Assembly: GCF_029688865.1 (NCBI RefSeq)
Contig: NZ_JARUKV010000001.1
Location: 124,001-188,000, forward strand
Source of the DNA: Natronococcus sp. A-GB7
Lineage (GTDB): Archaea; Halobacteriota; Halobacteria; Halobacteriales; Natrialbaceae
Reading direction: 5' to 3'
Length of the DNA stretch: 64,000 bases
Position 1 is the stretch's first letter. Each line of letters starts with the position of its first letter. A program made the translations under genes and the position numbers. This document shows, piece by piece, positions 38,906 to 49,286 of this stretch. The notes under the pieces were generated by a model. That model worked only from the letters and a program-made list of their open reading frames with translations, was not told where the DNA came from and did no database searches.

Positions 38906-40057
38906 ATGAACGGCAACCGCTTCGGTCGCCTCTTCCAGGTGACCACGTTCGGCGAGAGCCACGGGGAGGCGATGGGCTGTACCGTCTCGGGCTGTCCCGC
39001 GGGTCTCGAGCTCTCGGAGGAGGACATCCAGGCCGACCTCGATCGGCGAAAGCCGGGCCAGTCGATGATCACAACCAGCCGCGGCGAGCCAGACGACGTC
39101 TCGATCAAGTCGGGCGTTCAGGACGGCTACACCACGGGGACGCCGATCGGCATGGTGATCCAGAACAAGGACGCCCGCTCGGGGAAGTACGAACCGTTCA
39201 TCACCGCGCCCCGACCGAGCCACGGCGACTTCACCTACTCGGCGAAGTTCGGCACACGCAACTGGGGCGGCGGCGGGCGCTCCTCGGCCCGCGAGACGGT
39301 CAACTGGGTCGCCGCGGGCGCCATCGCGAAGAAACTGCTCGCCCGGGAGGGAATCGAGCTCAAGGCTCACGTGAACCAGATCGGCGACGTCGAGGCACCC
39401 GAGGTGAGCTTCGAGGAGATCAAAGCACACAGCGAGGAGAACGACGTCCGCTGTGCTCACCCCGAGACCGCAGCGGAGATGCAGGAGCTGATCGAGGAGT
39501 ACCAGGACGAGGGCGACTCGATCGGCGGCTCGATCTACTTCGAGGTCCAGGGGGTTCCGGTCGGTCTCGGCGCGCCCCGGTTCGACTCCCTCTCCGCGCG
39601 GCTCGGACAGGCGATGATGTCGGTGCCGGCGACGACGGCCTTCGAGTTCGGACTCGGCACCGAGGCCGCGGAGTGGACCGGCAAGGACCGCAACGACGAC
39701 TGGGAGTTCGATGCCGAGGGGAACCCAACCCCCGTCGAGAACGATCACGGCGGGATCCAGGGCGGTCTCTCGAGCGGCGAGCCGATCTACGGCGAAGTGA
39801 CGCTTCACGCCCCGACCTCGATCCCCAAGAGCCAGCAGACGGCCGACTGGGAGACGGGCGAACTCAAGGAGGAGCAGGTCATCGGCCGCCACGACCCCGT
39901 TTTGCCGCCCCGCGGCGTCCCCGTGGTCGAGGCGATGCTCGCGCTGACGCTCGTGGATTTCATGCTGCTGTCTGGCCGGATGAACCCCGACCGGGTCGAC
40001 GATCAGCCCGGCGAGTACGACACGGAGTACCACCCGAGTAGCCCCCGCAACGAGTAA
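38906..40057 (+). CDS. aroC: Chorismate synthase
   Basis: 383 residues. It opens MNGNRFGRLFQVTTFGESHG, the signature containing the active-site His. RETVNWVAAGAIAKKLL and the C-terminal HDPVLPPRGVPVVEAM segment are also characteristic. The enzyme needs reduced FMN and converts EPSP to chorismate, the branch point to aromatic amino acids. It completes the step following AroA, encoded at 34249. The ATG at 38906 is well placed behind a TATA-like element. Length is normal (360-390). Confidence 0.95.
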   Translation: MNGNRFGRLFQVTTFGESHGEAMGCTVSGCPAGLELSEEDIQADLDRRKPGQSMITTSRGEPDDVSIKSGVQDGYTTGTPIGMVIQNKDARSGKYEPFITAPRPSHGDFTYSAKFGTRNWGGGGRSSARETVNWVAAGAIAKKLLAREGIELKAHVNQIGDVEAPEVSFEEIKAHSEENDVRCAHPETAAEMQELIEEYQDEGDSIGGSIYFEVQGVPVGLGAPRFDSLSARLGQAMMSVPATTAFEFGLGTEAAEWTGKDRNDDWEFDAEGNPTPVENDHGGIQGGLSSGEPIYGEVTLHAPTSIPKSQQTADWETGELKEEQVIGRHDPVLPPRGVPVVEAMLALTLVDFMLLSGRMNPDRVDDQPGEYDTEYHPSSPRNE

Positions 40058-40212: not shown

Positions 40213-40223
40213 CACATATTGTG
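40213..40223 (+). promoter_or_regulatory. TATA-like element with inverted repeat upstream of E1-alpha
   Basis: CACA-TAT-TGTG is a perfect 4+4 inverted repeat around an A+T core centred 30 bases before the ATG at 40248. It likely contains the TATA box and may bind a regulator. The minus-strand promoter of the E2-OsmC gene also contains TATTGTG (45266-45272). Confidence 0.45.
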
Positions 40224-40247
40224 GATGTTGTGTTACTCTCACACGCC

Positions 40248-41299
40248 ATGGGGAGACTTGACATAGAAACCGAAGAAGGACGACGGGAAGCGTTGCGCCG
40301 AATGCTGACGATCCGAGCGTTCGACAGCGAGGCCGGAGACCGCTTCGCGGACGGCGAGATTCCGGGCTTCGTCCACCTCTACATCGGCGAGGAGGCGGTC
40401 GGCGTCGGTACCTGCGCCTCGCTCGAGGACGACGACTACATCGCCAGCACGCACCGGGGTCACGGCCACTGCATCGCGAAGGGACTGGACCCGAAGTATA
40501 TGATGGCGGAGTTGTACGGAAGGCCGAGGGCTACTGCAACGGCAAGGGTGGCTCGATGCACATCGCGGACGTCGACGCGGGGATGCTCGGCGCCAACGGG
40601 ATCGTCGGCGCGGGGCCGCCGCTGGCCACCGGCGCGGCGCTGTCGATCGACTACCAGGACCGCGACCAGGTCGCGGTCGGCTTCCTCGGCGACGGCGCGG
40701 TCGCCCAGGGGCAGGTCCACGAAGCGATGAACCTCGCGGCGACCTGGGATCTGCCGGCGATCTTCGTCATCGAGAACAACCACTACGGCGAGGGGACGCC
40801 CGTCGAGGAACAGCACAACGTCGACAACCTGAGCGACACCGCCCAGGCCCACGATATCCCCGGGCTGACGGTCGACGGGATGGATATCACTGCGGTCGCG
40901 GAGGCCGTCGGCGAGGCTCGAGCGCGCGCCAGAGCCGGCGACGGGCCGACGCTGATCGAGGCCGAGACCTACCGCTACCGGGGCCACTACGAGGGCGACG
41001 AGGAGCCCTACCGCGACGAGGACGAACTCGAGCGCTGGAAGGCCCGCGACCCGATTGACTCCTTCAAGGAGCGGCTGATCGACCGAGGCGAACTCACCGC
41101 CGAGGAGTTCGATGAGCTCGAAGGCGAGATCGAGGCCGAGATCGATGCGGCGGTCGAGTACGCCCAGAACGCGGAGCCGCCGGCGCCCCACGAGGCCTAC
41201 GACGACATGTTCGCCGAGACACCCCCCGAGATCGAACGGTTTGCAACTGCTGCGCGGACCAGCACCGATGGTGGCCACCCCGGAGGTGAGCGACGATGA
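40248..41299 (+). pseudogene. acoA: 2-oxoacid/acetoin dehydrogenase E1-alpha subunit, frameshifted
   Basis: Two overlapping frames together encode about 350 residues of a thiamine-diphosphate E1-alpha. Frame one (40248 to about 40519) gives the N-terminus to KYMMAELYG. After 40519 the family sequence continues in another frame: KAEGYCNGKGGSMHI, the thiamine-diphosphate motif GDGAVAQG with NN at its end, and the C-terminus to TGA 41299. One base appears missing in tacggaag (expected tac ggc aag). This is either a genuine inactivating deletion or a sequencing error; the rest shows no other decay. E1-beta overlaps its stop by four bases (ATGA). Confidence 0.85.
41282..41289 (+). promoter_or_regulatory. 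Strong ribosome-binding site of E1-beta
   Basis: GGAGGTGA lies six bases before the ATG at 41296, within the last codons of E1-alpha. The distance and match are ideal, so E1-beta can be translated independently of the frameshift upstream. Confidence 0.7.
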
Positions 41300-42306
41300 C
41301 CGCACAGGCCGAACGCGAACTCGAGACCGAGACCGAGACGATGACCGTCCGGGAGGCCGTCCGCCAGGCGCTGCGCGAGGAACTCGAGCGCGACGAGGAC
41401 GTCTACATCATGGGCGAGGACGTCGGGCTCTTCGGCGGCGTCCTCGAAGTGACGAGCGGCCTGTTCGACGAGTTCGGCGGCGAGCGCGTACGGGACACGC
41501 CGATCAGCGAGGCCGGCTTCATGGGCGCCGCGACTGGTGCCGCCGCGACGGGCACCCGCCCGGTCGTCGAGCTCATGTTCTCCGACTTCGCGGGCGTCTC
41601 GATGGAGCAGATCATGAACCAGATGGCGAAGATGCGCTACATGTTCGGCGGGAAGGCCGAGATGCCGGTCACCGTTCGGACGACCGAGGGCGGCGGCATG
41701 GGTGCGGCGAGCCAGCACTCGGGGACGATCCACACCTGGATGGCCCACTTCCCCGGGCTCAAAGCCGTCGCCCCCGGAACCGCCGCGAGCGCGAAGGGGC
41801 TAACGAAGGCTGCGATCCGTTCCGACGACCCCGTCTTCGTCTTCGAAAACAAGATGATCTACGAGCAGCAGGGCGCAGTGCCGACCGACGAGGAGTTCAC
41901 CGTCCCGCTTGGCGAGGCCGCGATCGAACGCGAGGGCGAGGACGTCACCGTCGTCGCCACCCAGCGGCTGGTTGGCGAATCCCTACAGACCGCCGAGAGC
42001 CTCTCCGACGCCGGCGTCGAGGCCGAGGTAATCGATCCACGGTCGCTGTACCCCCTCGACACCGAGACGATCGTCGAGAGCGTCCGGAAGACCGGTCGGC
42101 TCGTGGTCGCCGACGAGAGTCCTCTGTCGTACGGGACCCACGCCGAGATCATCGCCCGCGTCCAGGAGGAGGCCTTCTTCAGCCTCGACGCGCCGATCCA
42201 GCGCGTCGGCACGCCGGACACCCACATGCCGTTTAGCACGCCCCTCGAGCAGGAGGTCCTGCCCGACGGCGACGACGTCCGCGAGGCGGTCGAGCGGGTG
42301 ACGTAG
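41296..42306 (+). CDS. acoB: 2-oxoacid/acetoin dehydrogenase E1-beta subunit
   Basis: 336 residues. The opening TVREAVRQALREELERDEDVYIMGEDVG is typical of transketolase-like E1-beta chains. GVLEVTSGLFDEFG, FSDFAGVSMEQIMNQMAKMRYM and HSGTIHTWMAHFPGLKAVAPG are conserved, and VVADESPLSYGTHAEI lies in the C-terminal domain. With E1-alpha it forms a heterotetramer that decarboxylates a 2-oxoacid or acetoin and passes the product to lipoyl-E2. Substrate cannot be assigned from motifs alone; the downstream AcoX-like gene favours acetoin. The gene is followed with a one-base overlap (TAGTG) by that gene. Confidence 0.9.
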   Translation: MTAQAERELETETETMTVREAVRQALREELERDEDVYIMGEDVGLFGGVLEVTSGLFDEFGGERVRDTPISEAGFMGAATGAAATGTRPVVELMFSDFAGVSMEQIMNQMAKMRYMFGGKAEMPVTVRTTEGGGMGAASQHSGTIHTWMAHFPGLKAVAPGTAASAKGLTKAAIRSDDPVFVFENKMIYEQQGAVPTDEEFTVPLGEAAIEREGEDVTVVATQRLVGESLQTAESLSDAGVEAEVIDPRSLYPLDTETIVESVRKTGRLVVADESPLSYGTHAEIIARVQEEAFFSLDAPIQRVGTPDTHMPFSTPLEQEVLPDGDDVREAVERVT

Positions 42307-43337
42307 TGGCCCGCGTCGGACTGGTCGTCAACCCCGCCGCCGGGCGCGACATCCGGCGGCTCACCGGCGGCGCCAGCGTCGTCGACGACTACGCGAAACG
42401 GCGGGTCGCCGACTGCGTCCTCGAGGGACTGACTGCGGTCCCCGACCCCCCGAGCGTTCGCGTCATGCCCGATCGATCCGGGATCGCCGACCACGTCCTC
42501 GAGGAGGCGCCCGACGCGATCGAGGCCGAAGCCCTCGATATCCCCCTCGAGCGGTCGGCAGCGGATACGCGCCGGGCGGCCGCACAGTTTCGCGCGGACG
42601 GCGCCGACGCCGTCGTCGTCCTCGGCGGGGACGGGACGACCCGCGACGTCGCCGGCGAGATCGGGTCGGTTCCGGTCGTCTCGGTCTCGACGGGAACGAA
42701 CAACGTCGTCCCCTCGGCCGTCGACGGCACCGTCGCGGGCGTCGCCGCGGCGCTGGTCGCGACGAGCACCGTCTCGGCCGCCGACGTCGTCGAGCGGCAC
42801 GGACGGATCGAGGCCCGCGCCGAGACCCCGAGCGGGGAGAAGCGACTCGCCGCGCTCGCGGCTGCCGAGGTCTCTTCCCGGTCGTTCATCGGTTCTCGGG
42901 CGCTGCTCGATCCCGACGACCTCGTCGGGGGCGTCGTCTCCCGGGCCCGTCCGGGCGACATCGGACTCCCCGCGGTCGCCGGCGCGCTCGAGTCCGTCGC
43001 ACCCGGCGAACCCGGTGGCGTCGCCCTCCGGCTGACCGATCCCGTCGACGCCCCGCGGACCGCTCGGGCGGTGCTGGCACCCGGCGTCGTGGCGACAGTC
43101 GGGATCGAGTCCTGCAAGCGGGTCGAACCCGACGAGCCGGTCGCGTTCGAGGTTCCGGATGGCGTCGTCGGCGCCGACGGCGAGCGCGAACTCGAGCTCA
43201 CCGATACGACGGTCGAGTTCCGGGTTCGCTCGGACGGTCCGCGACTGGTCGACGTCGACGCCGCGCTTGCGGCCGGAGCCGACGCCGGTACGTTCGCCCT
43301 CGAGGCGGTCGACGTGCCGCCGTCGCCGGAGGACTGA
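42306..43337 (+). CDS. acoX: AcoX-like ATP-NAD kinase superfamily protein
   Basis: 343 residues, GTG start overlapping the E1-beta stop. Opening MARVGLVVNPAAGRDIRRLTGGAS and VVVLGGDGTTRDVAGEIG (GGDGT) place it in the NAD kinase/AcoX group. VVSVSTGTNNVVP follows. AcoX-type proteins occur in acetoin dehydrogenase operons of bacteria, but their reaction is not known to me. Its coupling to E1-beta is the best clue for an acetoin function of this cluster. The C-terminal 90 residues are strand-rich and hydrophilic. A second, different family member is encoded at 19283-20389. Confidence 0.8.
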   Translation: MARVGLVVNPAAGRDIRRLTGGASVVDDYAKRRVADCVLEGLTAVPDPPSVRVMPDRSGIADHVLEEAPDAIEAEALDIPLERSAADTRRAAAQFRADGADAVVVLGGDGTTRDVAGEIGSVPVVSVSTGTNNVVPSAVDGTVAGVAAALVATSTVSAADVVERHGRIEARAETPSGEKRLAALAAAEVSSRSFIGSRALLDPDDLVGGVVSRARPGDIGLPAVAGALESVAPGEPGGVALRLTDPVDAPRTARAVLAPGVVATVGIESCKRVEPDEPVAFEVPDGVVGADGERELELTDTTVEFRVRSDGPRLVDVDAALAAGADAGTFALEAVDVPPSPED

Positions 43338-43437: not shown

Positions 43438-45255
43438 CTAGATTCGCTCCCAGGAGAGCTCGAGCGCCAGATCCTCGCGGAGCAGCTGTGAGACGTGACA
43501 GCCCCGCTCGCCGACTTCGACGATCCGCTCGAGGGTTCCGTCGTCGGCGTCGCTCTCCAGGCGAACCGTCGCGGCGATCTCTTCGACCGCCCCGTGCTCG
43601 GGCTCGGCGTCGGTCGTGACGTCGATCTCGCCGACGGCGGCGTCGCGCTTCTCGGCCTGGAACCGAATCGAGAGCGAGAGACAGGCGGCCAGCCCGCCGA
43701 GGAAGACGTCGACTGGCGTCGGACCCGTCTCCGTCCCGCCGGCGTCTTCGGGCTCGTCGTAGCGCCACTCGAAGGAGCCGGCCTCGATCCGGCCGGCCAT
43801 CCCCCCGGCGTTCGAGGCGGAGACGGTTCGGCCGGGCATCTCCGTTTCGGCCGTGTCCGCTCGGTCGCCGGCCGCAGCGGCGACCTCGTCCGGCAGCAGC
43901 GACCACGGCTCCTCGATGCGTTCGACCAGCGTCCCGAGGAACCTGGCGGCGTCGGCGCCGTCGACGACCCGGTGGTCGAAGGAGAGATCGAACGGGAGGT
44001 GACGGCGCCACTCGACGCCGTCGTCGGCGCCTCGCGTGGGTCGCTCGGCGACAGCGTCGACGCCGAGGATCGCGACCTGGGGCGGGTTGATGATCGGATC
44101 GAACGACTCGACACCGAGGACGCCGAGGTTCGTCACCGTGAACGTTCCGCCCCGCAGGTCGTCCATCGTGTACTCGCCCTCGGTCGCCGCGCCGACGAGC
44201 TCGCGGCGCTCGGTGGCGACTGCCTCGAGCGATTTCTCGTCGACGTTCCGGAGTACGGGGGCGATGAGCCCCTGCTCGATGTCGACGGCGACCCCGAGGT
44301 TGTGCTCGTTCCAGAGGCGGTGAGTGTCGTCCTCGAAGGTCGCGTTGAACTCGGGGTGATCCTCGAGCGCCGCCGAAATCGCGAGCAGGAGTACGTCTTG
44401 GACGGAGACGTCGACCTCGAGGGCGTCGTCCGCGGCGTCGACGGCCGAAAACAGCGCCTCGGCGTCGGCCTCGCGGTGGGTCGTGACGTGGACGGCCTCC
44501 CGGTAGCTCTCGCCGAGCCGCGAGGCGATCGTCCGGCGCATCCCGTCGAACGGGCGCTCCTCGCGAAGGGTCCGTCCGGCGTCGTCGGCCGACTCGGCGG
44601 CCGCCTCGACGTCCTCCTCGGTGACCGACCCCTGGTACCCCGTGCCGTCGACGGTCGCGAGGTCGACGCCCAACTCCTCGGCGCGCTTGCGGGCTCGCGG
44701 AGAGGCCTGGACGTCGCCTCCCGTCTCGCCCTCGTCGGCGTCGGCCGTCCGTTCGACGTCGTCCTCGGTGATCGCGCCCTGATACCCCGTTCCCTCCACG
44801 CCCTCGAGGTCGACGCCGAGCTCTTCGGCCCGTTTCCGTGCGCGCGGCGAAACCTTGCCTGCGTCGGCGGCCGACCCCGTCGCCGAGGCGGCGCCGTCGG
44901 TCGCGGCTTCGGCACTCGAACTCTCGGCCGGAGCCGGCTCGTCCGTGGGTTCGGCGCTCCCGTCGACGCCCTCGAGTTCCGCCTCGACCTCGGCCTCGAG
45001 GTCACCGATATCCGCGTCTGCGGGAGCGACGATCCCGATCGGGGTCCCCGGTGGCACCGTCTCGCCCGCCTCGAGGTAGGTCCGTCGGAGAACGCCGTGT
45101 TCCCGGGCCTCGATCTCTCCGATACTCTTCTCGGATTCGACCTCGGCGACGAGTTCTCCCTCTTCGATCGTCTCGCCCTCGTCGACCGCCCACTCGAGGA
45201 GCTCCCCGCGTTCCATCTCCAGACCGAGCTTCGGCATCTTGACAACGTACCCCAT
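43438..45255 (-). CDS. Dihydrolipoamide acyltransferase (E2) fused to a C-terminal OsmC domain
   Basis: 605 residues. Order: lipoyl domain 1-78 with lipoylation Lys43 (ESEKSIGE); Ala/Glu/Ser-rich linker; two near-identical peripheral-subunit-binding domains at about 134-170 and 184-219 (both SPRARKRAEELGVDL and GTGYQG); catalytic acyltransferase domain about 230-455 with DHRVVDG (His428, Asp432). An OsmC-like domain (472-605) follows, with Cys525 in GLAACLSLS and Cys586 in RGCHVSQ. OsmC/Ohr proteins reduce organic hydroperoxides using such cysteine pairs, and Ohr-type enzymes can take electrons from lipoylated proteins, so the fusion may unite donor and peroxidase. The ATG at 45255 opens the lipoyl domain. 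It converges with the E1/AcoX operon. Confidence 0.88.
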   Translation of the reverse strand: MGYVVKMPKLGLEMERGELLEWAVDEGETIEEGELVAEVESEKSIGEIEAREHGVLRRTYLEAGETVPPGTPIGIVAPADADIGDLEAEVEAELEGVDGSAEPTDEPAPAESSSAEAATDGAASATGSAADAGKVSPRARKRAEELGVDLEGVEGTGYQGAITEDDVERTADADEGETGGDVQASPRARKRAEELGVDLATVDGTGYQGSVTEEDVEAAAESADDAGRTLREERPFDGMRRTIASRLGESYREAVHVTTHREADAEALFSAVDAADDALEVDVSVQDVLLLAISAALEDHPEFNATFEDDTHRLWNEHNLGVAVDIEQGLIAPVLRNVDEKSLEAVATERRELVGAATEGEYTMDDLRGGTFTVTNLGVLGVESFDPIINPPQVAILGVDAVAERPTRGADDGVEWRRHLPFDLSFDHRVVDGADAARFLGTLVERIEEPWSLLPDEVAAAAGDRADTAETEMPGRTVSASNAGGMAGRIEAGSFEWRYDEPEDAGGTETGPTPVDVFLGGLAACLSLSIRFQAEKRDAAVGEIDVTTDAEPEHGAVEEIAATVRLESDADDGTLERIVEVGERGCHVSQLLREDLALELSWERI

Positions 45256-45369: not shown

Positions 45370-46182
45370 TCAGATGACGTTCTGGAGGATACCGCCGTCG
45401 ACGACGACCGACTCGCCGGTGATGTTGCGGTTCTTTGCGAGGAAGACGACCGCCCGACCCATATCCTCGGGGTCCTGATCGCGACCCATCGGGATCGCCC
45501 CCTCGACCGTCTCCTCGTAGGTCTCGTCGAGCGACGGAGTCAGCACGTCCTCCCACATCGGCGTCTCGACGATCCCCGGACAGACGGCGTTGACCGTGAC
45601 CTCGGGGGCGAGTTCCAGCGCCAGCGACTTCGTAAACCCGAGGACGGCGTGTTTCGATGCACAGTAGTGGGCGAGCCCGCCGGCGCCGATCTCGCCGGCG
45701 ATCGAGGCGGTGTTGACGATCGTCCCGTTCGACTCTCGGAGATACGGGATCGCGGCCCGGGCCACGAGGAACACGCCCTTCGCGTTGACGTCGACGATCG
45801 ACTCCCACTCCGCCTCGGCCATCTCCTCGACTGGGGCGACGGTGATAACACCGGCGTTGTTCGCCACGACGTCGATGCGGCCGAACTCGTCGACGACCTC
45901 CTCGACCATTCCCTCGACCTGCTCGGCGTCGGTCACGTCGCACTCGAGGACGTGTGCGCGCTGTCCCTCCTCCTCGACGCGATCCACGACCTCTCGGGTG
46001 CGTTCGATCCCTCCGACCGCCGTCGACGCCTGCTGGTTGTACTCCGTCTCGAGCACGTCTACGTCCGCGATCACGACGTCGCTCCCGGCGGCCGCGAGCT
46101 CGGCGGCGATCCCGGTTCCGATATCGCCACCGCCGCCGGTGACGATCGATACGCTTCCCTCGAGTGTCGATTCTTCAACCAT
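45370..46182 (-). CDS. Short-chain dehydrogenase/reductase (possible acetoin/2,3-butanediol dehydrogenase)
   Basis: 270 residues of the classical SDR fold: VTGGGGDIGTGIA (cofactor motif), NNAGV, and active-site TASIAGEIGAG with YCASKHAVL (Tyr/Lys catalytic pair). The C-terminus ITGESVVVDGGIL is the usual end. The acidic residue after beta-2 (VIADVD) favours NAD over NADP. The acetoin-type E1/E2 genes next door make an acetoin or butanediol dehydrogenase an attractive guess, but SDR sequences do not fix the substrate. Start ATG 46182; it lies 114 bases upstream of the E2-OsmC gene, on the same strand. Confidence 0.85.
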   Translation of the reverse strand: MVEESTLEGSVSIVTGGGGDIGTGIAAELAAAGSDVVIADVDVLETEYNQQASTAVGGIERTREVVDRVEEEGQRAHVLECDVTDAEQVEGMVEEVVDEFGRIDVVANNAGVITVAPVEEMAEAEWESIVDVNAKGVFLVARAAIPYLRESNGTIVNTASIAGEIGAGGLAHYCASKHAVLGFTKSLALELAPEVTVNAVCPGIVETPMWEDVLTPSLDETYEETVEGAIPMGRDQDPEDMGRAVVFLAKNRNITGESVVVDGGILQNVI

Positions 46183-46443
46183 GGCTATCGCCGATAGGGG
46201 AGCGAGTAGTATAGGAAAGCTAGTTGGTACCATATATCGCCCAGTTCGAAACGCTACGTACCGAGGGTAGAGCTATCAGTTTCGAACGACACAGAACGCT
46301 GCCTCGGGGTAGAAGGACTGTAGGCGACGTAAATTGGATGGTTGTACATTCTTCACGATAGATGCATGACAATCCATAGCAAAGGCTTTAGGCACGGTGA
46401 GACAAAAATTCGGATACGGCTGGCCAACTGGCCACTGATCTCA
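46183..46443. promoter_or_regulatory. Divergent promoter region between SDR and oxidoreductase genes
   Basis: This 261-base stretch is distinctly A+T-richer than the flanking genes. On the minus strand CCTATACTAC (46207-46216) lies 30 bases before the SDR ATG. On the plus strand A+T-rich tracts near 46330-46340 and 46382-46415 (ggctttaggc, gacaaaaattcgg) precede the ATG at 46444. No gene is supported within it. Confidence 0.45.
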
Positions 46444-48348
46444 ATGAGCGATGACGAACTCATCTGGCGAGTCTCAGGCGGTTCCGGAGACGGAATCGAC
46501 TCGACGAGCCAGAACTTCGCGAAGGCGCTGATGCGCTCGGGGCTCGACGTATTTACACACCGCCACTATCCGTCGCGGATCCGTGGTGGCCACACCTACG
46601 TCGAGATTCGGGCGGCAGCAGACGAGGTACAGTCACGGGGCGACGGCTACAACTTCCTCCTCGCGCTGGGGGACTCCTTCGCCCGGAACCCACAGGAGGA
46701 GGCCTACTACGGCAACGAGGAGATCAAACCCCTCTCGGAGAACTTAGACGAACTCCGCGAGGGCGGGGTCATCGTCTACGACGAGGGGCTGCTCAGCGAG
46801 GACGACGTCGCCGAGCTCGACTTAGAGGAGCGCGCCGAGGAGAACGACTGGCACGTCTACCCGGTCGACCTGCGCGGCCTCGCCAAGGAACACGGCCGCG
46901 AGGTCATGCGCAACACCGCCGGCGTCGGCATCACGGCCGGACTGCTCGATATGCAACTCGAGCACATCGAGGACCTGATGTCCGACGCGATGGGCGGGGA
47001 CATCCTCGAGGCGAACCTCGAGATCCTCCACGAGGCCTACGAGATGGTCGACGAGGAGTTCGAGACGACCCACGACCTCCGCGTCCCGACGGGCGAACAC
47101 GACACCGAACAGGCGCTGCTGTCGGGGTCGAACGCGATCGCCTACGGCGCCATCGACGGCGGCTGTCGCTTCATCGCGGGCTACCCGATGACGCCGTGGA
47201 CCGACGTCTTCACCATCCTCAGCCAGAACTTCCCCGACATCGGGGGCGTTTCCGAGCAGGTCGAAGACGAGATCGCCGCGGCCGCGCTCGCGGTAGGCGC
47301 GAGCCACGCCGGCGCGAAAGCCATGTCCGGCTCTTCGGGCGGTGGCTTCGCGCTGATGAGCGAACCGCTCGGTCTCGCGGAGATGACCGAGACGCCGCTC
47401 GTGCTCGTCGAATCGATGCGCGCCGGCCCCTCGACCGGGATGCCGACGAAACCCGAGCAGGGCGACCTCGAGTTCGTCCTCTACACGAGCCAGGGCGACT
47501 CCTCGCGGGTCGTCTTCGCTCCGGGCACCATCGAGGAGGCCTACGAGCAGACCCGACTCGCCTTCCACATCGCCTGGGAGTACCAGATCCCGACGATCAT
47601 CATCTACGACCAGAAGCTCTCCGGCGAGAACAAGAACGTCGACGTCGAGTTCTTCGACCGCGAGCCCGAGCCGGGACTGGGTACGACGCTCACCGAGGAG
47701 GAGCTCAAGGAGGCCGCACACGACAACTCCGGCAAGTTCGAGCGCTTCGGCTACGAGGACAACGAGAAGAACGTCAGCAAGCGCTCGCTGCCCGGCCAGA
47801 AGGGCGGGCGCTACCTCGCGACCGGCAACGAGCACTCGCCCGTCGGGCACATCAGCGAGGATCCCGACAACCGGGTCTACCAGATGACCCGCCGCATCGA
47901 GAAGCTCGACTCCATCCGCGAGGAGCTCGACGAGGAACACGACTCCAACCAGACCTACTTCGGCGACGAAGACGCCGAGTACGGTATCATCACCTGGGGC
48001 TCGAGCCAGGGCGCCGTCGTCGAGGCCGTCGAACGGCTGAACGACAGCGGCCACTCGGTGAAGGGTATCAGCGTCTCCGACATGATGCCGTTCGCCGAGG
48101 CCGAGGTGACGGAGTTCCTCGAGAGCGTCGACGAGGCGATGGTCGTCGAGATGAACGCCACCGCCCAGTTCCGCGGCCTGATCCAGAAGGAACTCGGCCG
48201 CTTCGGCGACAAGATGACGAGCCTGCTGAAGTACAACGGTAACCCGTTCGAACCGGCGGAGATCGTCGAGGGCTACGAGGTCAACGTCGCCGAGGAGGAC
48301 CGCGAACCGTCCGCACAGGTACGAATCGAACCCGCTGCAGGTGACTGA
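46444..48348 (+). CDS. porA: 2-oxoacid:ferredoxin oxidoreductase alpha subunit (gamma-alpha fusion, probably pyruvate)
   Basis: 634 residues. The first 190 residues are the gamma domain (VSGGSGDGIDSTSQNFAKALMRSG and YPSRIRGGHTYVEIR). The alpha part follows with ALLSGSNAIAYGAIDGGCRFIAGYPMTPWTD and the SSGGGFALMSE loop. The complex oxidatively decarboxylates a 2-oxoacid to an acyl-CoA and passes electrons to ferredoxin, the main route in haloarchaea. The length and partner size (311 residues) resemble the haloarchaeal pyruvate enzyme more than the 2-oxoglutarate one, but this comparison is from memory. The ATG at 46444 is preferred over an upstream extension. It is followed two bases later by the beta subunit. 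Confidence 0.9.
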   Translation: MSDDELIWRVSGGSGDGIDSTSQNFAKALMRSGLDVFTHRHYPSRIRGGHTYVEIRAAADEVQSRGDGYNFLLALGDSFARNPQEEAYYGNEEIKPLSENLDELREGGVIVYDEGLLSEDDVAELDLEERAEENDWHVYPVDLRGLAKEHGREVMRNTAGVGITAGLLDMQLEHIEDLMSDAMGGDILEANLEILHEAYEMVDEEFETTHDLRVPTGEHDTEQALLSGSNAIAYGAIDGGCRFIAGYPMTPWTDVFTILSQNFPDIGGVSEQVEDEIAAAALAVGASHAGAKAMSGSSGGGFALMSEPLGLAEMTETPLVLVESMRAGPSTGMPTKPEQGDLEFVLYTSQGDSSRVVFAPGTIEEAYEQTRLAFHIAWEYQIPTIIIYDQKLSGENKNVDVEFFDREPEPGLGTTLTEEELKEAAHDNSGKFERFGYEDNEKNVSKRSLPGQKGGRYLATGNEHSPVGHISEDPDNRVYQMTRRIEKLDSIREELDEEHDSNQTYFGDEDAEYGIITWGSSQGAVVEAVERLNDSGHSVKGISVSDMMPFAEAEVTEFLESVDEAMVVEMNATAQFRGLIQKELGRFGDKMTSLLKYNGNPFEPAEIVEGYEVNVAEEDREPSAQVRIEPAAGD

Positions 48349-48350
48349 AC

Positions 48351-49286
48351 ATGAGTGCATTCAACGCAATCGGTGAGGAACGAGAGATCGACCGGGACGA
48401 GTACACGCCCGGCGTCGAACCGCAGCCGACCTGGTGTCCTGGCTGTGGCGACTTCGGCGTACTGAAGTCGCTGAAGCAGGCGCTCCCGGAGGTCGGCAAG
48501 ACCCCCGAGGAGGTCCTGACGGTCACCGGGATCGGCTGTTCGGGCAAGCTCAACAGCTATCTCGACACGTACGGCTTCCACACGATCCACGGCCGCTCGC
48601 TACCCGTGGCCCGTGCGGCGAAGCTGGCCAACCCCGAACTCGAGGTCATCGCCGCTGGCGGTGACGGCGACGGCTACGGCATCGGTGGGAACCACTTCAT
48701 CCACACGGCCCGGGAGAACCACGACATGACGTACATCGTGTTCAACAACGAGATCTTCGGGCTGACGAAGGGCCAGACGTCGCCCACGAGCCCGAAGGGC
48801 CACAAGTCGAAGACCCAGCCCTCCGGCAGCGCGAAGTCGCCGCTTCGTCCGCTCTCGATGGGGCTGAACGCCGGTGCGACGTACGTCGCTCGCACCGCCG
48901 CGGTCAACCCCAACCAGGCAAAGGAGATCATCAAGGAGGCCATCGAGCACGACGGCTTCGCCCACGTCGACTTCCTGACCCAGTGTCCGACCTGGAACAA
49001 GGACGCCCGGCAGTACGTCCCCTACGTCGACGTCCAGGAGTCCGACGACTACGAGTTCGACGTCAACGATCGGGCGGAGGCCGCCGAGATGATGCGCGAG
49101 ACCGAGGACGTCCTCAACGAGGGCACCGTCCTCACCGGTCGGTACTACGTCGACGACGAGAGCCCCTCCTACACCGAGGAGAAGAAGGCCGTCGGCGAGA
49201 TGCCTGACCAGCCGGTCGCCGAACGGTACTTCGACGAGGACGCCGAGTGGGAGCGCAGCTACGACCTGCTCGAGCGCCACACGTAA
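48351..49286 (+). CDS. porB: 2-oxoacid:ferredoxin oxidoreductase beta subunit (probably pyruvate)
   Basis: 311 residues. TWCPGCGDFGVLKSLKQA supplies Cys29 and Cys32, GIGCSGK gives Cys63 and LTQCPTWN a fourth, the likely [4Fe-4S] ligands. The thiamine-diphosphate motif AGGDGDGYGIGGNHF begins near residue 102 and ends in VFNNEIFGLTKGQTSPTS. It forms the catalytic site with the alpha subunit, two bases upstream, in a tight operon. No separate ferredoxin-type delta subunit is present, as is usual in haloarchaea. The substrate is uncertain, as noted for the alpha subunit. Confidence 0.92.
   Translation: MSAFNAIGEEREIDRDEYTPGVEPQPTWCPGCGDFGVLKSLKQALPEVGKTPEEVLTVTGIGCSGKLNSYLDTYGFHTIHGRSLPVARAAKLANPELEVIAAGGDGDGYGIGGNHFIHTARENHDMTYIVFNNEIFGLTKGQTSPTSPKGHKSKTQPSGSAKSPLRPLSMGLNAGATYVARTAAVNPNQAKEIIKEAIEHDGFAHVDFLTQCPTWNKDARQYVPYVDVQESDDYEFDVNDRAEAAEMMRETEDVLNEGTVLTGRYYVDDESPSYTEEKKAVGEMPDQPVAERYFDEDAEWERSYDLLERHT

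Follow-up and report, generated by a model that had tools for sequence, protein, structure and literature searches.

A conserved haloarchaeal fusion of a predicted E2 acyltransferase with a C-terminal OsmC-like domain

The window analysed here is a stretch of 64,000 nucleotides from Natronococcus sp. A-GB7, and all positions refer to it. On its minus strand, the gene at 43438..45255 encodes a chain of 605 amino acids, identified from its open frame and its Pfam domains as a fusion of an E2 acyltransferase with an OsmC domain. Translation runs without an internal stop from position 45255 down to the stop at 43438. The N-terminal lipoyl domain (residues 1-78; 45022..45255) matches Pfam Biotin_lipoyl over residues 5-74 with 51 bits, above the curated cut-off, and Lys43 (45127..45129), in the lipoyl motif ESEKS, is the lipoylation site predicted from the translation and its alignment column. 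It is followed by two E3/peripheral-subunit-binding domains, residues 135-176 (44728..44853) and residues 182-217 (44605..44712, the best E3_binding stretch), both scoring above the curated cut-off of Pfam E3_binding. The acyltransferase catalytic core (residues 232-454; 43894..44562) matches 2-oxoacid_dh with 227 bits, again above the curated cut-off, and contains the active-site motif DHRVVDG at residues 427-433 (43957..43977). The core ends in the ordinary way, with EEPWSLL, and about 20 residues further on begins an OsmC-like domain (residues 472-605; 43441..43842), supported by Pfam OsmC (residues 507-600, 54 bits, above the curated cut-off), by a structural model and by a fold match. Cys525 (43681..43683) aligns with the peroxidatic cysteine of OsmC/Ohr proteins and Cys586 (43498..43500) with the resolving one; the chain contains no other cysteine. 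The first-pass annotation had placed all these parts in one chain with no frameshift needed to join them, and Pfam and the translation agree with it on both points. Judged by its sequence, the protein has the marks of an E2: a lipoyl domain with the lipoylation lysine, an E3-binding domain and a core with DHRxxDG.

Convergent with this gene, on the plus strand, lie genes for E1 alpha (40221..41299; E1_dh on two overlapping open reading frames), E1 beta (41296..42306; Transket_pyr and Transketolase_C) and an AcoX-like member of the NAD-kinase family (42306..43337; NAD_kinase). The E1 alpha frame is broken near 40478-40523 in this assembly and is a single intact frame in relatives; the break may be a sequencing error or a real lesion. 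Upstream of the E2-OsmC gene and on the same strand is a short-chain dehydrogenase gene (45370..46233), similar to 2,3-butanediol dehydrogenases at scores below their cut-offs; such a gene is also present beside loci L077, L142 and L154. The slot is flanked, as its synteny indicates, by a plus-strand gene at 38906..40057, which we take to be aroC (chorismate synthase), and by two further plus-strand genes at 46444..48348 and 48351..49286, presumably the korA-like and korB-like subunits of a 2-oxoacid:ferredoxin oxidoreductase. Elsewhere in the genome there are two lipoamide dehydrogenases, one of them directly preceded by a second, conventional E2 that has no OsmC domain.

An AcoX-like gene, E1 alpha, E1 beta and E2 thus stand together at this locus. 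A bacterial operon has a NAD-kinase-family gene, E1 alpha, E1 beta and an annotated acetoin dehydrogenase E2 side by side, and because it has the same neighbours, we assign this arrangement to the acetoin dehydrogenase (aco) type. Acetoin as the substrate is inferred from this analogy. As part of the reading preferred below, we predict that the gene product serves an acetoin-dehydrogenase-type complex as its E2 and carries a YhfA-like OsmC domain as a fixed C-terminal tail.

The fusion is widespread among haloarchaea. The full form was found in 50 of 391 sampled Halobacteria genomes, 42 of which also have an AcoX-like gene, and in the sampled haloarchaea it usually adjoins E1 alpha, E1 beta and the AcoX-like gene. 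It spans at least four family-level groups of Halobacteria, in genera that include Natronococcus, Natronorubrum, Halobiforma, Halobellus, Halorubrum, Halogranum, Halomarina, Halegenticoccus and Natribaculum. Three other OsmC proteins (L064:6201, L072 and L074) were excluded from these family counts. All 74 fused rows have the lipoyl lysine, a figure in which some genomes are counted twice through two collections. Among Natronococcus and its near kin, the dN/dS ratio of the OsmC part was 0.16-0.30 by our own Nei-Gojobori script, like that of the core; on these ratios, the OsmC part is under purifying selection. A chance event, an assembly join or a recent accident was ruled out, as the same domain order in one open frame recurs in the 50 sampled genomes and in several genera. 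We conclude that the fusion is genuine, ancient and conserved. Conservation among archaeal relatives had been raised beforehand as the point to search, uniqueness being the sign of an accident; the fused state turned out to be the common one among relatives, though in one genus, Haloterrigena, the cluster contains OsmC as a gene of its own.

Outside Halobacteria, a metagenome-assembled genome labelled bacterial (L141:4714-6387) carries lipoyl, E3-binding, core and OsmC domains in one frame of 557 amino acids, adjoining E1 alpha and E1 beta. The same genome also has, at L163, a standalone OsmC in a frame of 152 amino acids that groups with the L141 OsmC domain. No second fusion was recognised among 297 genomes of the phylum of this assembly. 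Viral contigs, searched for close relatives, gave no match to the whole protein, and plasmids gave no fused form covering over 80% of the chain. Two further loci deserve mention for their own sake. At L044:1275-13460, an E2-OsmC fusion with E1 alpha and E1 beta lies amid eight short-chain dehydrogenase frames, which suggest another substrate. At L074:5147-6964, an open frame of 605 amino acids has at its end an OsmC domain belonging to a different subfamily; Pfam recognised nothing in its first 500 residues, and the frame may be over-long. E2, OsmC, lipoyl-driven Ohr and OsmC fused to hydrolases are already known as separate elements; a search of open-access papers, which left out subscription journals, turned up none that describes an E2-OsmC fusion.

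The OsmC part was modelled by AlphaFold2 at a pLDDT of 95.4. The best structural matches of the model were OsmC-like proteins of Mycoplasma pneumoniae and Thermoplasma and E. coli YhfA, followed by Ohr and OsmC, with Z about 12.6-15.5 against OsmC/Ohr/YhfA structures; crystal structures of OhrB with dihydrolipoamide were among the matches. In this confident model, the domain has the Ohr/OsmC/YhfA fold. Across 48 aligned domains, the only invariant columns were P514, C525, P552 and C586. Ohr has its catalytic Glu51 ten residues before the peroxidatic Cys61 (PMC5962072). In an alignment with Ohr/OsmC, this glutamate was absent from the fused domain, which has V515 there and D516 next. Likewise, the catalytic arginine between strands 1 and 2 was not seen in the sequence alignment, where the loop reads NAGGMA with no conserved Arg. 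Membership of Ohr was therefore ruled out by residues. Since the fold and cysteines of the OsmC superfamily are present and the Glu and Arg of the proven peroxidases are missing, the domain appears nearer to the YhfA type. Two cysteines without the Arg/Glu pair are what defines that type; YhfA proteins have neither residue, and their activity has not been investigated (PMC8945050). YhfA has also been described as the exception to peroxidase activity within the family (PMC4069020). Identity to E. coli YhfA is 17%, the best OsmC-type NCBIfam match (NF041052) falls below its cut-off, and the outgroup branches in the tree were too long.

The position of the domain raises the possibility of a structural role, in which OsmC domains would join E2 trimers to each other or act as decoration on the core. 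At their C-terminus, E2 cores engage in two-fold contacts, and the OsmC domain starts about where such contacts would lie. The active form of OsmC/Ohr, moreover, is a homodimer (PMC8945050). A purely structural role would leave the invariant cysteines unexplained, and unfused and truncated forms exist; we regard it as improbable. Equally improbable, in our judgement, is an action on the complex's thiols or thioesters instead of on peroxides, for example by clearing dead-end acyl or oxidised lipoyl forms. Among the nearest sequence relatives is the OsmC tail of bifunctional alpha/beta hydrolase/OsmC proteins, and the Ohr residues for hydroperoxide chemistry are lacking, both of which would suit this role, but relatives that have lost the complex keep the domain.

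These relatives are informative. In eight sampled genomes, the fusion is replaced by a short lipoyl-OsmC protein of 244-271 amino acids (loci L042, L065, L088, L095, L096, L099, L103 and L104). By synteny, seven of the eight sit in the slot of the fused gene, between aroC and korAB, and these slots are without E1 alpha, E1 beta, AcoX, binding domains and E2 core; AcoX was found in none of the eight genomes. Two further short rows came from named genomes, one being the same gene as L088, for a total of 10 rows and 9 distinct genes. The lipoyl lysine was present in none of the 10 rows and the OsmC cysteines were retained; all short forms preserve a lipoyl-like fold. In pairs with a short form, the lipoyl part evolves faster, with dN/dS ratios of 0.26-0.38 versus 0.05-0.11 between fused pairs, and the rate of the OsmC part rises only a little, to 0.19-0.29 from 0.14-0.18. 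The tree, which is built on few columns and leaves many forks unresolved, needs six changes to the short state, five of them forced by well-supported branches, so truncation was most likely repeated. Many other genomes of the family have neither AcoX nor this OsmC; retention of the OsmC is thus not the rule.

Because the OsmC domain was kept after loss of both the complex and the lipoyl lysine, it has a function that can be separated both from the complex, which it outlives in some lineages, and from a cis lipoyl arm, and the loss of the lysine in every short form indicates that the cis arm is not needed there. The short forms had been considered as proof of lipoyl coupling; this use was dropped, as none has the lysine. 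That the lysine is always present in the fused form and never in the short form agrees with its serving the complex; the pattern neither proves nor excludes transfer from lipoyl to OsmC. These findings bear on the idea that OsmC is an independent thiol enzyme, a peroxidase or another, fused mainly for co-expression or co-location and drawing its reductant from elsewhere than the lipoyl arm of its own complex. At least five separate truncations in the aroC-korAB slot retained OsmC after loss of E1, AcoX and E2 core, its selection persists where the lysine is gone, and Haloterrigena has the OsmC gene on its own, beside E1 alpha in that slot. Yet even after truncation OsmC retains a lipoyl fold as its neighbour, and the lysine is present in every fused form. 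We consider this explanation unlikely, if the strongest of the alternatives.

The same lineages weigh against a regulatory role. The first-pass annotation had offered, as one of two functions, a redox sensor of the complex. In such a sensor, disulfide formation by the cysteine pair would alter E2 activity or assembly. The OsmC domain does lie directly behind the core C-terminus, with two invariant cysteines as the only ones in the chain. However, the domain persists with its cysteines in lineages without E1, AcoX and E2 core, which makes a pure sensor of the complex less likely, and sister complexes without OsmC exist; we assign the sensor a low probability.

Where haloarchaeal aco-like loci lack this OsmC, their E2 is either ordinary or has a core minus DHRxxDG. 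The latter, with TYDxRAI and similar sequences instead, was seen in 15 loci that form one clade (L038-L041, L142, L143, L145-L147, L151, L153-L155, L160 and L161). A conserved alpha/beta-hydrolase gene lies nearby in all 15 (365-553 bits) and in no scanned locus with an intact core; at L160 (9332-10948, 538 amino acids), a lipoyl domain precedes the hydrolase in one fused chain, as in bacterial AcoC. In these loci, it looks like the acyltransferase core has been swapped for a hydrolase-type enzyme.

The reading we prefer, held tentatively and at a little under an even chance, is that the OsmC tail is a lipoyl-coupled dithiol redox module on E2. The fusion would put a user of dithiols beside the complex's own dithiol supply. 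Cys525 would attack an oxidant and then form a disulfide with Cys586; the oxidant might be an organic hydroperoxide, as guessed from the superfamily, or some other electrophilic oxidised species. A dihydrolipoyl arm, on the same E2 chain or on a neighbouring one, would reduce this disulfide, and E3 would restore the arm from NADH. As truncated relatives keep the domain minus the lipoyl lysine, the OsmC chemistry can presumably run without an arm of its own, probably on dithiols in trans; lipoyl dithiols would thus be drawn on in cis where the arm exists and in trans where it is missing. Consistent with this module are the uninterrupted and conserved fusion, often accompanied by AcoX, its invariant cysteines in an OsmC fold, the lipoyl lysine present in every fused row, the purifying selection on the OsmC part, the OhrB-dihydrolipoamide matches, the precedent of Ohr and OsmC reduced by lipoylated proteins, the two lipoamide dehydrogenases and the bacterial assembly with the same architecture. 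Counting against it are the missing Glu and Arg, YhfA as the closest characterised type, the lysine-less short forms and the related haloarchaeal complexes without any OsmC.

The other function first suggested was a built-in peroxidase driven by the complex's dithiol. Its premise is documented: Ohr-type proteins and OsmC are reduced by lipoylated E2/E3 proteins, with electrons from NADH (PMC4069020, PMC8945050). This precedent, the conserved fusion and the aligned cysteine pair speak for it, and the absence of the Glu and Arg of Ohr/OsmC peroxidases speaks against it. A peroxidase covalently built into E2, driven by the complex's lipoyl arms and using a variant active site without the Arg/Glu pair, is in our view rather unlikely.

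A conserved covalent version, if true, would make the E2 complex a metabolic and antioxidant machine in one chain. To our knowledge, all descriptions of peroxide removal driven by lipoyl groups concern proteins that are separate. E2-OsmC would further provide a tethered system for direct testing of the lipoyl-to-OsmC step and a way into the YhfA-type OsmC proteins. With its fused, separate and truncated forms, the last without the lipoyl lysine, nature has already set up an experiment on what OsmC requires.

Among known systems, Ohr of Xylella fastidiosa and Chromobacterium violaceum shares the fold and the cysteine pair with the OsmC domain of E2, and has both documented reduction by lipoylated E2/E3 and OhrB structures with dihydrolipoamide; Ohr, however, is a separate small protein with catalytic Arg19 and Glu51, both of which the fused domain lacks. 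E. coli YhfA (1ml8; Z 15) resembles the fused domain in having two cysteines and no Arg/Glu pair, and in its SPMEM motif the acid comes one residue later, matching D516; it differs in being a standalone protein of low identity, whereas the fused domain is the tail of an E2. A similar C-terminal OsmC behind an enzyme occurs in bifunctional alpha/beta hydrolase/OsmC proteins (PDB 9wo1; Sinorhizobium plasmids), where the partner is a hydrolase rather than a lipoylated E2. The bacterial acetoin dehydrogenase operon has an AcoX-like kinase, E1 alpha, E1 beta and a lipoylated E2 side by side, as here, but its AcoC consists of lipoyl and alpha/beta-hydrolase domains, with no OsmC and no classical core, unlike E2-OsmC. 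In the mycobacterial DlaT-AhpD-AhpC system, the lipoyl dithiols of an E2 feed a peroxidase, as proposed for E2-OsmC, through separate proteins and with a peroxidase of a different family from OsmC.
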